Below are positions 5,305-46,269 of a stretch of 64,000 nt of DNA, one piece after another. A model generated the notes under the pieces. It was not told where the DNA came from and did no database searches. It saw only the letters and a program-made list of their open reading frames with translations. The stretch spans positions 124,001-188,000 of the forward strand of contig NZ_FOPS01000005.1 in the NCBI RefSeq assembly GCF_900113545.1, written 5' to 3'. A program made the position numbers and the translations under genes. The DNA is from Neisseria elongata subsp. elongata. Lineage in GTDB: Bacteria > Pseudomonadota > Gammaproteobacteria > Burkholderiales > Neisseriaceae. How positions within the stretch are numbered: the first letter of the stretch is position 1; each line of letters starts with the position of its first letter.

Positions 5305-5379
5305 CTTTCCTTAATGTTTACAAGGGCGTCATATGGGGGCTGTGCTTTATGTTTCCGCTTGTTTTTAAAAACCTGCCTG
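5305..5379 (-). promoter_or_regulatory. Recurring 5' leader element, copy E (short, divergent)
   Basis: The whole spacer between the DUF4291 stop and the L,D-transpeptidase start. Read on the minus strand it has AACATAAAGCACAGCCCCC, similar to ACATAAGGCGCAGCCCTGT of copy A, and ends ACATTAAGGAAAG directly before the ATG. In the reading frame matching copy A it encodes NIKHSPHMTPL followed by a stop, comparable with HIRRSPVCCPDL. Confidence 0.5.
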
Positions 5380-5952
5380 TCAAATCGGAACATGGACGGC
5401 GGGATAAGGTTGTTCCGGCGGCAGCAGGATTTGTACTTCGTCCAGTCTGTTTTGTTCTACCAATTCGCGTATCTGCCGCGCCAGCGGGGTGATTTCGGTA
5501 ATGTCCTGTATCCAGTCGTTCACATAATAGTTCACGGCTTCGCCGCTCAAACCGATTTGTATGCTGCGGTATGGCAGTGCTTTCAGTTGCAAATCGCGCT
5601 CGGGGTCCCATTGGATGCGGACGGGGCTTTGTGCTTTGAGCCTTTGCCAGTCGTCTTTGCCCATACCGGCCGGCGGATGACTCAGGCAGGCATGACGCAA
5701 TGCCCATTCGAAGCCTTCGTGGCTGATGTCTATGGCGAGTATGCGTTTTTGCCCTTCGTCTTTCAGCCCCCAGCCCGCGCGATACATCATCCATAAAAAA
5801 GACGGTTTTATCCAGGTCATGCGTTCCATTTTAAAGGGCGGGGAAACGAATGTGCCGTGCGCCAAGGCGGCATCGGCTATGGGGTCGCTATATGCCTGAT
5901 AAACGCGTATGGTGTGTTCGCCGTATACGGCGCGGATGGTGTTTTGATTCAT
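5380..5952 (-). CDS. DUF4291 domain-containing protein
   Basis: A 190-residue cytoplasmic protein starting MNQNTIRAVYGEHTIRVYQAY. The opening (IRA.Y....IRVYQAY...IA), the FKMERMTWIKPSFLWMMYRAGWG block at about residues 45-68 and IQWDPERDLQL at about 135 are characteristic of the DUF4291 family, whose function is unknown. Start chosen at complement 5952, where AAGGAAATTTTG of the leader element gives an ideal Shine-Dalgarno; the longer frame beginning in the leader is not needed. Between this gene and the upstream membrane-protein gene lies the best preserved copy of the recurring leader. Confidence 0.85.
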   Translation of the reverse strand: MNQNTIRAVYGEHTIRVYQAYSDPIADAALAHGTFVSPPFKMERMTWIKPSFLWMMYRAGWGLKDEGQKRILAIDISHEGFEWALRHACLSHPPAGMGKDDWQRLKAQSPVRIQWDPERDLQLKALPYRSIQIGLSGEAVNYYVNDWIQDITEITPLARQIRELVEQNRLDEVQILLPPEQPYPAVHVPI

Positions 5953-6090
5953 CAAAATTTCCTTAACGGTTGAAACCACGCCCTTTGGGGCGGTAGGATT
6001 TGGGTTTGTTTGGGAAGGGCGTAACCCCTTCCAAATCAGGGCAACACACAGGGCTGCGCCTTATGTGCGGCCCTGTGTGTTGAAACATCG
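5953..6090 (-). promoter_or_regulatory. Recurring 5' leader element, copy A (most complete)
   Basis: On the minus strand it contains hairpin 1 with perfect 11-bp arms (ACACACAGGGC / GCCCTGTGTGT) whose loop carries ACATAAGGCGCA, hairpin 2 (GGAAGGG / CCCTTCC), hairpin 3 (CCGCCC caaa GGGCG), and the 3' end AACCGTTAAGGAAATTTTG joined to ATG. It aligns closely with copy B at 36182-36293 and partly with copies C, D and E. It supplies the ribosome binding site of the gene behind it. Function unknown. Confidence 0.7.
5963..6088 (-). CDS. Putative 41-codon leader ORF inside leader copy A
   Basis: ATG at complement 6088 has an AAGGA eight bases upstream; the frame reads MFQHTGPHIRRSPVCCPDLE and runs 41 codons to a TAA at 5963. 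That TAA is part of the Shine-Dalgarno of the DUF4291 gene (TAAGGAAA), so termination would place a ribosome at the next start. The peptide is basic and Cys/Pro-rich. In copy B the corresponding frame has in-frame stops, so this may be a relic rather than an expressed peptide. Confidence 0.35.
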   Translation of the reverse strand: MFQHTGPHIRRSPVCCPDLEGVTPFPNKPKSYRPKGRGFNR

Positions 6091-6108
6091 AAAAATCCTT
6101 TTTTGTGT

Positions 6109-8403: not shown

Positions 8404-8494
8404 CGATTGTTCCTTAATGGTTGGTGCTTTGCCGTTGAGGACGGCCGGATCAGAATTTATTGGGGATGTTTCAACACAGGGCTGTGTTTTATAG
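8404..8494 (-). promoter_or_regulatory. Recurring 5' leader element, copy D (partial)
   Basis: On the minus strand it has the palindrome AACACAGCCCTGTGTT, then about 50 nt of unlike sequence and the family 3' end ACCATTAAGGAACAATCG before the ATG. The central CATAAGG box is not preserved. A GCTATAAAA stretch just upstream could be a -10 box. Confidence 0.45.
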
Positions 8495-8530
8495 CGGGCA
8501 AACAAAACGGCGGCATTCTAACCGATTTTT

Positions 8531-9127
8531 TCAGGCCGTCAATAAACCCGCCGCTTCAAAAAACGCCCGATACGCCGCCGCCTTCTTCGCCAAACTCAAA
8601 GGATAGGCGCGTGAGGTGGACGGCAGGCGGGTCAGGGTCAAGTCCCGCCCGGCAAACGGAAACGGCACGGTTTCACCCGTTTTCGGCATTTTGATGCCGC
8701 CGCCCTGAATATCGAGCAAGATTTCCGTTGCCTTACCGCCGGTGGTGCAGATATAGCAGCAGTCGGGCATCTGCGCCAACACCGCCGCCAAATCGACGGT
8801 TTCGACCACTTGCAGGAATTTGTCAGACGCATTGCCGTGTTCCCGTACGGCCTTTAAGACTGTCGGACAGGAAGCAATACCCTTTGTCCGCAGGAATGCT
8901 TTGATTTTCTCCGCGTCAAATGCTTTTTCAGACGGCCTCTGAAAGTATGCCGCATCATTGAAAAACACCAGCCCGTAAATGCGCCACATATCGTTTTGGA
9001 AATTCGGATAATGAAACTGCATCGCGCGTTTGTCTTCCGTAGGCGGGAACGTACCCATCATCATGACGGTTGCCGCCGGCGGCAGCAGGGCGGGGAAAGG
9101 ATGGGTTTCGATGATTTGATCGGTCAT
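8531..9127 (-). CDS. Uracil-DNA glycosylase-like protein
   Basis: A 198-residue cytoplasmic protein. MMMGTFPP at about residues 22-29 corresponds to the N-terminal uracil-binding strand motif of the UDG superfamily (compare GTFPS/GQNPG), followed by a region with WRIYG and FFND. LPSTSRAYPL near residue 168 matches the C-terminal HPSPLS-type motif, with Leu-Pro replacing His-Pro. Such enzymes remove damaged or deaminated bases. The histidine replacement makes activity uncertain. Within it AYFQRPSEKAF is a DUS read in frame. Confidence 0.65.
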   Translation of the reverse strand: MTDQIIETHPFPALLPPAATVMMMGTFPPTEDKRAMQFHYPNFQNDMWRIYGLVFFNDAAYFQRPSEKAFDAEKIKAFLRTKGIASCPTVLKAVREHGNASDKFLQVVETVDLAAVLAQMPDCCYICTTGGKATEILLDIQGGGIKMPKTGETVPFPFAGRDLTLTRLPSTSRAYPLSLAKKAAAYRAFFEAAGLLTA

Positions 9128-11769: not shown

Positions 11770-11901
11770 CAAAACTTCCTTTATGGTTCAGACTCCGCGC
11801 TTTTTAATGCTCAAAGCAAAGGGCTTTCGGCAGAAATATAACTCCTACCGGCGATAAAATACACAGGGCGTCGCTTATGTCGCATACTGTGCGTTAAAGC
11901 A
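11770..11901 (-). promoter_or_regulatory. Recurring 5' leader element, copy C
   Basis: It fills the spacer between the acidic-protein stop and trpF. Minus-strand landmarks: TTTAACGCACAGTATGCGAC, then ATAAGCGACGCCCTGTGTAT (matching CACATAAGGCGCAGCCCTGT of copy A), and the 3' end ACCATAAAGGAAGTTTTG directly before ATG. A 32-codon frame (complement 11811-11909) gives THSMRHKRRPVYFIAGR, comparable with QHTGPHIRRSPVCCPDLE of copy A. Confidence 0.55.
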
Positions 11902-12276
11902 TCACTCATTTCTTTCAGACGGCCTATCCATACAGCGAAAAACGTAATCCGCCACCGTGCGATAGTCATACCCCAAACGGTTGGAAACGGCAGCGGCCAA
12001 TGCCTGCTCATTTTCAGAATTGCCCATATCGGCAGCCAAATCGACAAACAAATCGGCAATTTCCGCCGCACCGATATTGCGAAATGCGGCGGCAAATCCG
12101 TCGGCCAGAAATTCCGCAGCATAATCATCGGCAAAATCAGCCCCCATATCGCACAGCAATTCGGCTTCGGCAATCAGAAAAACCGTACGCTGCCAATTAT
12201 TCAAACCGTCCATTCCGTTCAGCCGCCCTGCTTCGACCGCCTCCGCAATCGCCCCTTCGACATCACGCATCGTCAT
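11902..12276 (-). CDS. Small acidic hypothetical protein
   Basis: 124 residues, strongly acidic (about two dozen Asp/Glu against nine Arg) and Ala-rich. It reads [20 protein letters not shown] at the start and has [21 protein letters not shown] in the middle. All-helical by appearance, with no signal peptide. The acidity and size recall DNA-mimic or immunity proteins, but no motif proves that. Its ATG overlaps the stop of truA (ATGA), so it is coupled to that gene. Leader copy C starts at its stop codon. Confidence 0.6.
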
Positions 12277-36181: not shown

Positions 36182-36293
36182 CAAGATTTCCTTAATGGTT
36201 GAACTCCGCCCTTCGGGGCGGCAGGTTTGGGAGTTTAGTCAGGGCAATGAATGGGCATGCGCCTTATGCACACTCCGGCGTGTTAAATCTTCG
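36182..36293 (-). promoter_or_regulatory. Recurring 5' leader element, copy B
   Basis: It closely matches copy A on the minus strand: GTGCATAAGGCGCATGCCC, then ATTGCCCTGA, CTCCCAAACCTGCCGCCCC, AAGGGCGGAGTTCAACC and ATTAAGGAAATCTTG joined to ATG. It lacks the GGAAGGG hairpin of copy A. The frame equivalent to the copy A leader ORF gives VCIRRMPIHCPD but is broken by stops on both sides. Confidence 0.7.
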
Positions 36294-46162: not shown

Positions 46163-46237
46163 TACATTTCCTTTTTCAGACGGCCTTCTTGAAGCCGCCG
46201 ATTCTACCTTCCGACAGGGCAGGCTTTCAACCGACAA

Positions 46238-46269
46238 AGGCCGTCTGAAAACCTGATTTCAGACGGCCT
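46238..46269. terminator. DUS hairpin downstream of the MarR gene
   Basis: AGGCCGTCTGAAA and TTTCAGACGGCCT around a short loop, 15 nt past the stop of the MarR gene. Confidence 0.7.

Follow-up and report, generated by a model that had tools for sequence, protein, structure and literature searches.

Hairpin-rich leaders before unrelated genes of Neisseria elongata as probable insertions of the REP2/CREN repeat at start codons

Why should genes that share no pathway be preceded by one and the same hairpin-rich leader, which ends exactly where the start codon begins? This question is raised by a 64,000-nucleotide (nt) stretch of the Neisseria elongata subsp. elongata genome (contig NZ_FOPS01000005.1, positions 124,001 to 188,000; hereafter the window), in which a preliminary description had noticed five such leaders (A to E). 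The answer that we favor, with a probability of roughly 0.86, is that these leaders are copies of REP2/CREN, a repeat already known from Neisseria, and that the repeat is a non-autonomous element, which inserts at ATG/AA (the slash marks the point of insertion) and brings with it a replacement translation-initiation region.

Filled and empty alleles at start codons

The evidence for insertion is a comparison of alleles with and without the element for six genes (yjgA, iscX, a U32 peptidase gene, crgA, xseB, and parC), with one filled allele for each and 14 empty alleles in all. Two of these genes are filled in the host genome and empty in its relatives G031 (yjgA) and G021 (iscX), and the other four are filled in G019 and empty in various relatives (the G numbers are our labels for genomes). 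Here, ATGAA stands at the site in 14 of the 14 empty alleles, and the last 15 nt before the ATG match the filled flank at 12–15 positions in 11 of them. At yjgA, 58 of 60 upstream nt are identical, the last 15 without exception. In every filled allele, the old sequence continues to the start codon, after which comes ATGTTTCAAC or ATGTTCCAAC; at its other end the element closes with AAGGAAA (AAGGGAA at yjgA) and a few bases before the gene. Allele by allele, the comparison shows a clean insertion at the start codon with the old leader left upstream, although it is the comparison of alleles, and not movement followed in real time, that shows it. The empty-site loci examined comprised 20 for yjgA, ten for iscX, five for rluF, seven for trpF, and two for hscB, as well as 35 loci of seven G019 genes; 18 yjgA and eight iscX element-free alleles with poorly aligning flanks are excluded from the six-gene comparison. 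As regards the earlier suggestion of a mobile or duplicated expression cassette, the filled and empty sites bear out the mobility, but not the duplication of a whole cassette.

A separate observation concerns the filled parC allele (L165 in G019), where the right triplet is ATA and an ATG follows two codons on, at the place where the empty alleles L353, L354, L357, L358, and L361 read ACG. The parC start codon has thus apparently shifted after the insertion.

The target is best described from G031, the genome with most copies. From the 71 matches reported there, 60 stretches were fetched with 65 hits inside, and with three partial hits dropped, 62 copies were counted (one cut by a contig end). 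Their right flank, readable in 60, is ATGAA in 52, ATAAA in six, and ATAAG and ATGGA in one each. With all 62 taken together, ATG stands at the left edge in 54, and at the right edge there is ATG in 54 and ATA in seven; since an ATG is found at both edges, the element's own ATG could be either one. As for placement, 43 of the 62 (69%) adjoin a start, with an open reading frame (ORF) of at least 60 amino acids following in 40 and an ORF running off the end of the stretch sooner in three, and 19 are not clearly before a gene. Of 65 gene starts in the window (crude predictions), 21 read ATGAA. Counted over both strands of the window, this word occurs 136 times, of which 21 fall on predicted starts, 101 on other places within genes, and 14 on intergenic DNA. 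If insertions within genes were lost, the share at starts would be 21/35 (60%). A preference for ATG/AA together with the loss of damaging insertions can thus explain the placement at start codons, with no common pathway required and no positive selection needing to be invoked. The expectation that copies always end at start codons is true of A to E, but not clearly so of the 19 G031 copies, and not of a remnant elsewhere in the window (Table 1). Moreover, while each leader does end at a start codon and supply the Shine-Dalgarno, the cause would be insertion at ATG/AA of an element with its own Shine-Dalgarno and ATG, not the copying of a cassette.

Traces of what stood before the genes earlier also appear to survive. 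In 22 of 61 G031 copies, a Shine-Dalgarno-like word precedes the element's ATG at −16 to −4, as against 2–5 of 61 in four 12-nt windows further up (starting at −40 to −28), and these words are probably the genes' previous ribosome-binding sites. Element-free orthologues of adk, surE, ubiE, and ispF have such sites directly before the ATG in several of four relatives. By the same likeness, AAAAAAGGATTTTTCG, which lies just before copy A, is probably the former ribosome-binding site of the DUF4291 gene, now separated from that gene; a like pattern is seen in relatives, and no empty allele was found for the DUF4291 gene itself.

The REP2/CREN family in the window and beyond

The family was identified by its position in G019, which has two pilC genes. 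One match ends 38 nt before one pilC ORF, while the 5′ end of the other pilC has none of the 41 G019 matches nearby; pilC2 reportedly lacks REP2. Another G019 copy adjoins crgA, the N-terminus of whose product matches a LysR regulator (PDB 3hhg_A, E 1.1e-30, 60/60 residues), which we take to be CrgA. REP2 is also said, in an account going back to Morelle 2003, to have a ribosome-binding site 5–13 nt before the ATG at its 3′ end. By these positions before pilC and crgA, we identify the leaders as copies of REP2/CREN, and the earlier statement that no element of this form had been described falls away. In the literature, pilC1 and crgA are named as genes influenced by REP2, with REP2 marked upstream of pilC1 (PMC3898611), CREN is described as an element of 150 bp linked to induction on contact (PMC9031163, which cites the REP2 paper, and PMC5079597), and CrgA is called CREN-dependent (PMC9072670); all papers given here by PMC number are drawn on in excerpt. 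The excerpts covered (PMC9031163, PMC3898611, PMC4553322, PMC3733652, PMC5383966, PMC4423775, PMC5383330, PMC5079597, PMC3960869, PMC8445170, and PMC9072670, a set that excludes the primary papers Morelle 2003, Deghmane 2003, and Parkhill 2000) gave no account of clean insertion of REP2 at start codons, of an ATG/AA target, of covarying hairpins, or of spread to other genera. The family itself is known, and for the clean insertion, target, covariation, and wider spread shown here we claim no priority.

Table 1. Copies of the element in the window and the layout of copy A.
Feature	Positions	Strand	Remarks
Copy A	5953..6088	minus	136 nt, full-length; before the DUF4291 gene (Pfam PF14124); own 5′ ATG at 6086-6088, gene ATG at 5950-5952
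Copy B	36182..36291	minus	Hairpin 2 deleted; before a GT4 glycosyltransferase gene
Copy C	8404..8505	minus	3′ part recognised; before a gene for a 45-residue entericidin-like lipoprotein (name from the preliminary description)
Copy D	11770..11902	minus	Diverged but full-length; before trpF (PF00697)
Putative copy E	5305..5374	minus	Before an L,D-transpeptidase gene (PF03734); not significant with independent profiles
Sixth remnant, 3′ half, decayed	46190..46247	plus	Away from a start codon; 17.3 bits, E 1.1e-4 (40-copy profile)
Hairpin 1 of copy A	6042..6082	minus	CAACACACAGGGC ... GCCCTGTGTGTTG; fold and covariation
Hairpin 2 of copy A	6008..6036	minus	Fold and covariation; missing in copy B
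Hairpin 3 of copy A	5979..5993	minus	CCGCCC CAAA GGGCG; fold and covariation
Shine-Dalgarno AAGGA, supplied by the element	5960..5964	minus	7 nt before the gene ATG; kept in relatives
Upstream open frame from the element's 5′ ATG	5963..6088	minus	41 codons; stop overlaps the Shine-Dalgarno
AAAAAAGGATTTTTCG	6089..6104	minus	Just before copy A; candidate old ribosome-binding site

For the window, significance was judged by profiles without any copy from the host genome. A profile of the 62 G031 copies recovers A (160.6 bits, E 7e-49), B (49.4 bits, E 1.4e-14), D (31.7 bits, E 3.9e-9, positions 2-139), and C (19.3 bits, E 2.6e-5, positions 55-138), and one of 40 copies from other genomes gives E values of 4.4e-43 for A, 6.4e-13 for B, 4.9e-10 for D, and 1.7e-6 for C. 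The top scores in 20 random windows (first-order Markov) were 12.9 and 8.9 bits with the G031 and 40-copy profiles, respectively. Leader E has no match to the G031 profile and reaches 5.1 bits (E 0.68, for its 5′ part) with the 40-copy profile; model R1, for which eight host copies (A, B, and D among them) were used, gives it an E value of 0.0052, and it may be a decayed remnant. In the preliminary description, the positions and strand of A to E were right (all are on the minus strand and adjoin an ATG with AAGGA before it), and the downstream genes are indeed unrelated by their translations and Pfam matches. Its count of five related leaders, however, takes in E and overlooks the sixth remnant. 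That C keeps only part of the leader was correct, though the same was said of D, which is full-length, and the statement that C begins at the stop of the preceding gene finds no support, as about 25 nt lie between the stop of ORF 8531-9127 and position 8505, where the R1 match to C sets in.

Copy A begins with ATGTTTCAAC, continues through three hairpins, and ends with AAGGAAATTTTG directly before the DUF4291 ATG. A terminator scan of this copy found none, and a promoter scan gave one sigma-70-like site, on the opposite strand, against 0.4 expected by chance. The DUF4291 gene itself (5380-5952) has relatives across several phyla, with Neisseria in no title of the 80 loci kept (108 found), and was probably acquired.

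More copies, as the preliminary description proposed to seek, are present both in the same genome and in relatives. With copy A as the sole BLAST query, host copies were found before yjgA, iscX, hscB, a pseudouridine synthase gene, and a helicase-like gene (E 1.2e-56 to 2.9e-7; the five names are our reading of the translations), and the host genome has eight clear copies in total. Model R1 gives 19 host matches at E ≤ 1, eight of them strong (E ≤ 2.2e-21), these eight scores being circular in that the same copies built the model; among the weaker matches are C and the leader of an aroK-like gene. Within the genus, R1 matches 25 of 46 genomes at E ≤ 0.01 and 21 of 46 at E ≤ 1e-4, and at the latter threshold also 3 of 37 other Neisseriaceae genomes, which makes 3 of 12 genera altogether. 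Copy numbers, which are lower bounds since part of the candidates was scored, are patchy at E ≤ 0.01, with 71 in G031, 30–49 in G005, G014, G019, G022, and G039, 14 in the host, and 0–8 in the remaining genus genomes; outside the genus (E ≤ 1e-4), there are 24 and 28 in two genomes of one genus and five in one genome of another. The N. gonorrhoeae records NZ_CP119140.1 and NZ_CP119142.1 contain 26 and 25 places, respectively; both are 2.17-Mb records filed as plasmids and are apparently chromosomes. With one G019 copy as query, these two records were the only matches in the plasmid collection, and 50,697 phage records gave nothing at E 1e-5, while an exact pattern of the 3′ end matches eight IMG/VR contigs.

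Several observations at the fringes of this search stand on their own. Some weak R1 hits in the E ≤ 0.01 scan are probably CRISPR repeats. The repeats at loci L148-L151 in relatives (GTTTCAACACACAGCCGCC.GAAGGCGGCT) have the 14-nt GTTTCAACACACAG in common, perhaps by chance, with the 5′ end of the element, and in the host genome several short hits cluster in a probable CRISPR array (contig C6, about 110.9-114.6 kb). A sub-family with the hairpins but with a TTTCAACCATATTCCGTCGGYG end, and with no Shine-Dalgarno and ATG, is seen at L138 (G018), L141 (G021, where the match stops after ATATT), and L168 (G019, element from 1501). At L401, about 2560-2746 (G019 contig C1, about 986.6 kb), a Correia-type element has apparently inserted in a REP2 copy at TA, and at L009 (host contig C10:70754-70794, minus strand) a lone 5′ hairpin is found, reversed, just before another gene start.

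Hairpin pairing and competing explanations

Folded alone, copy A is far more stable than shuffled sequence (z −4.25), and across 44 copies from several genomes, 82.0% of cells are paired. These copies were chosen by us from those fetched, with the CRISPR-like hits at L148-L151 and short or truncated copies excluded; the alignment was made without structure, and we wrote the structure ourselves on the basis of copy A and its relatives. In 78 cells both sides have changed, compared to 35.4 ± 4.6 on shuffling (0 of 500) and at most 25 with slid partners. By helix, changes on both sides occur in 7 of 16 pairs of helix 1 (hairpin 1, 77.4% of cells paired), in 5 of 11 pairs of helices 2 and 3 (hairpin 2), and in 5 of 6 pairs of helix 4 (hairpin 3), where the inner pair swaps C-G to G-C. 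In hairpin 1, certain pairs are broken in many copies, with one failing in 30 of 41. The compensatory changes that were to be looked for in the three stems are present in the 44-copy count, and the three hairpins are shown to be under pairing constraint. This pairing could act as RNA or as single-stranded DNA during transposition.

Covarying hairpins are likewise what would be expected of a selected regulatory leader, riboswitch-like or belonging to a contact-response regulon, that is kept at starts to co-regulate genes. According to published reports, contact with host cells leads CREN to induce the genes downstream of it (PMC5079597, PMC9031163, PMC9072670), and nhba is induced in a strain with CREN and not in a strain without it (PMC5079597). 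The regulation reported in these excerpts is of other genes, in pathogens, and not of the DUF4291, trpF, GT4, and entericidin-like genes of the window. Against such a leader, the thermoregulation of NHBA is reported to be independent of CREN (PMC9031163), the genes downstream are unrelated, several orthologues are without a copy, the 19 G031 copies mentioned above are not clearly before any gene, and the placement at starts is near that of ATGAA sites outside genes in the window (21/35). For the family as a whole we consider such a leader unlikely, though certain copies can have taken on this role later. A metabolite riboswitch, which the preliminary description had argued against, was rightly set aside and is rejected, as all 4227 Rfam families at gathering score give only two tRNAs in the window and the downstream genes are unrelated.

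Less probable still is that the leader is immobile and that homologous recombination or gene conversion, through natural transformation, has copied it from one gene to another. Neisseria is naturally transformable, the zwf leader in G031 resembles a partial replacement of an old leader, and the ksgA leaders of G009 and G022 are strongly diverged versions, yet the six genes above keep the old flank up to the start codon around the insertion, and the G031 copies share no flank beyond ATG/AA, save the Shine-Dalgarno-like words on the left. Weakest of all, and very improbable, is a translated, attenuator-like leader peptide as the conserved function: copy A and the G031 consensus do have a 41-codon open frame whose TAA overlaps the Shine-Dalgarno, the stop is 10 nt before the gene ATG in 37 of 62 G031 copies, and synonymous changes are slightly high per cell (178 vs 155 ± 10, P 0.019), but distinct variants are not enriched for such changes (39 vs 38.0 ± 3.3), stops are not avoided (3 vs 2.1; per cell 12 vs 5.8), net length changes within the frame occur in 21 copies and put 15 of these out of frame, full-length G019-type copies stop at about codon 30, and with a substitution pattern that has no clear protein-level selection, the peptide-coding frame was rejected.

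Insertion of REP2/CREN at ATG/AA as an explanation has points weighing against it as well. Among the empty alleles, the upstream flank of L350 is unaligned (3/15) and those of L366 and L370 are poor (10/15), and no clean empty site was found in 13 of the 19 genes compared. The zwf flank in G031 suggests that part of the old leader was lost, and host rluF and trpF align to G031 only in part. By a weaker measure of covariation, 17 of 33 pairs changed on both sides versus 12.3 ± 1.9 on shuffling (7 of 500). As for a mobilizing enzyme, G031 (83% complete), the genome with most copies, has no match to Y1 transposase (PF01797), which was detected in 7 of the 12 genomes searched. Near 12 Y1 loci there are only weak hits to the element's ends (E 0.23 or worse). 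An IS110 transposase (PF02371), present in 17 of 46 genus genomes, was not found in the host or in the 83%-complete G031. Nor was an autonomous parent seen beside four partial G019 copies, where ORFs were inspected by eye with no family search.

Possible mode of insertion and relation to known systems

As we picture it, REP2/CREN would be a short mobile element that is non-autonomous and is moved by a trans-acting recombinase or transposase. Its length is about 136 nt, or about 150 nt in those relatives where hairpin 3 has an extra insert. It would insert in a single orientation at ATG/AA and most often be tolerated at the start codons of genes. The Shine-Dalgarno at its right end lets the gene keep a start, and the element would replace the region where translation of the gene is initiated. 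From the displaced start codon a short upstream frame would then open, which may couple or attenuate translation via the hairpins, and some meningococcal copies, for which this regulation is published, would have been turned into regulated promoters. Mobilizers of the Y1 (IS200/IS605, REP-RAYT) and IS110/Piv types were considered and are unsupported, the 83%-complete G031 being without a match to either family. We hold it to be an even bet that behind REP2/CREN stands a mobile system that has gone unrecognised, one that seeks ATG/AA, in this way lands on start codons, and makes good the damage with a Shine-Dalgarno and ATG of its own. The repeat would then be the part of it that is seen, a translation-initiation module able to transpose, which some mobilizer has carried into at least three Neisseriaceae genera.

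With REP2/CREN taken as such an insertion, the repeats discussed as meningococcal contact-response elements would gain a concrete origin, as insertions that took over gene starts, and the filled and empty alleles in close relatives make an effect on expression directly testable. A start-codon-targeting element that itself repairs translation would, if true, represent an unusual strategy for mobile DNA.

REP and IS200/IS605-type elements have hairpins near their ends, no inverted ends, and oriented insertion at a short site. The element resembles REP/RAYT systems in these respects, but is far longer than REP, has no matched Y1 in G031, and shows no clear ends by the 12 Y1 loci. With REP2/CREN, the window family shares its place directly before pilC and crgA in G019, a length of about 136–150 nt, and a Shine-Dalgarno a few nt before the ATG at the 3′ end. 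REP2 reportedly has a −24/−12 type promoter, and here GG-N10-GC fits copy A, although this promoter may not be conserved in the window family (the G of its GC is at 52% in G031, and the region is missing in copy B). Other differences are that CREN is called specific for pathogenic Neisseria (PMC5079597), whereas copies are found here in the window genome and two other genera as well, and that the downstream genes are other than those published. As with miniature inverted-repeat transposable elements (MITEs), insertion is clean against the empty sites of six genes, but unlike the classical Neisseria MITEs, no terminal inverted repeats are seen by inspection, the ends ATGTTTCAAC and AAGGAAATTTTG(ATG) not being complementary. 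Likewise, the Correia elements (CREE, NEMIS) and ATR, the insertions of which vary between strains (PMC5383966), are short, non-coding, mobile repeats, though, in contrast to these, the element has an asymmetric ATG/AA target, a single orientation to it, and a Shine-Dalgarno and start codon that it brings along.
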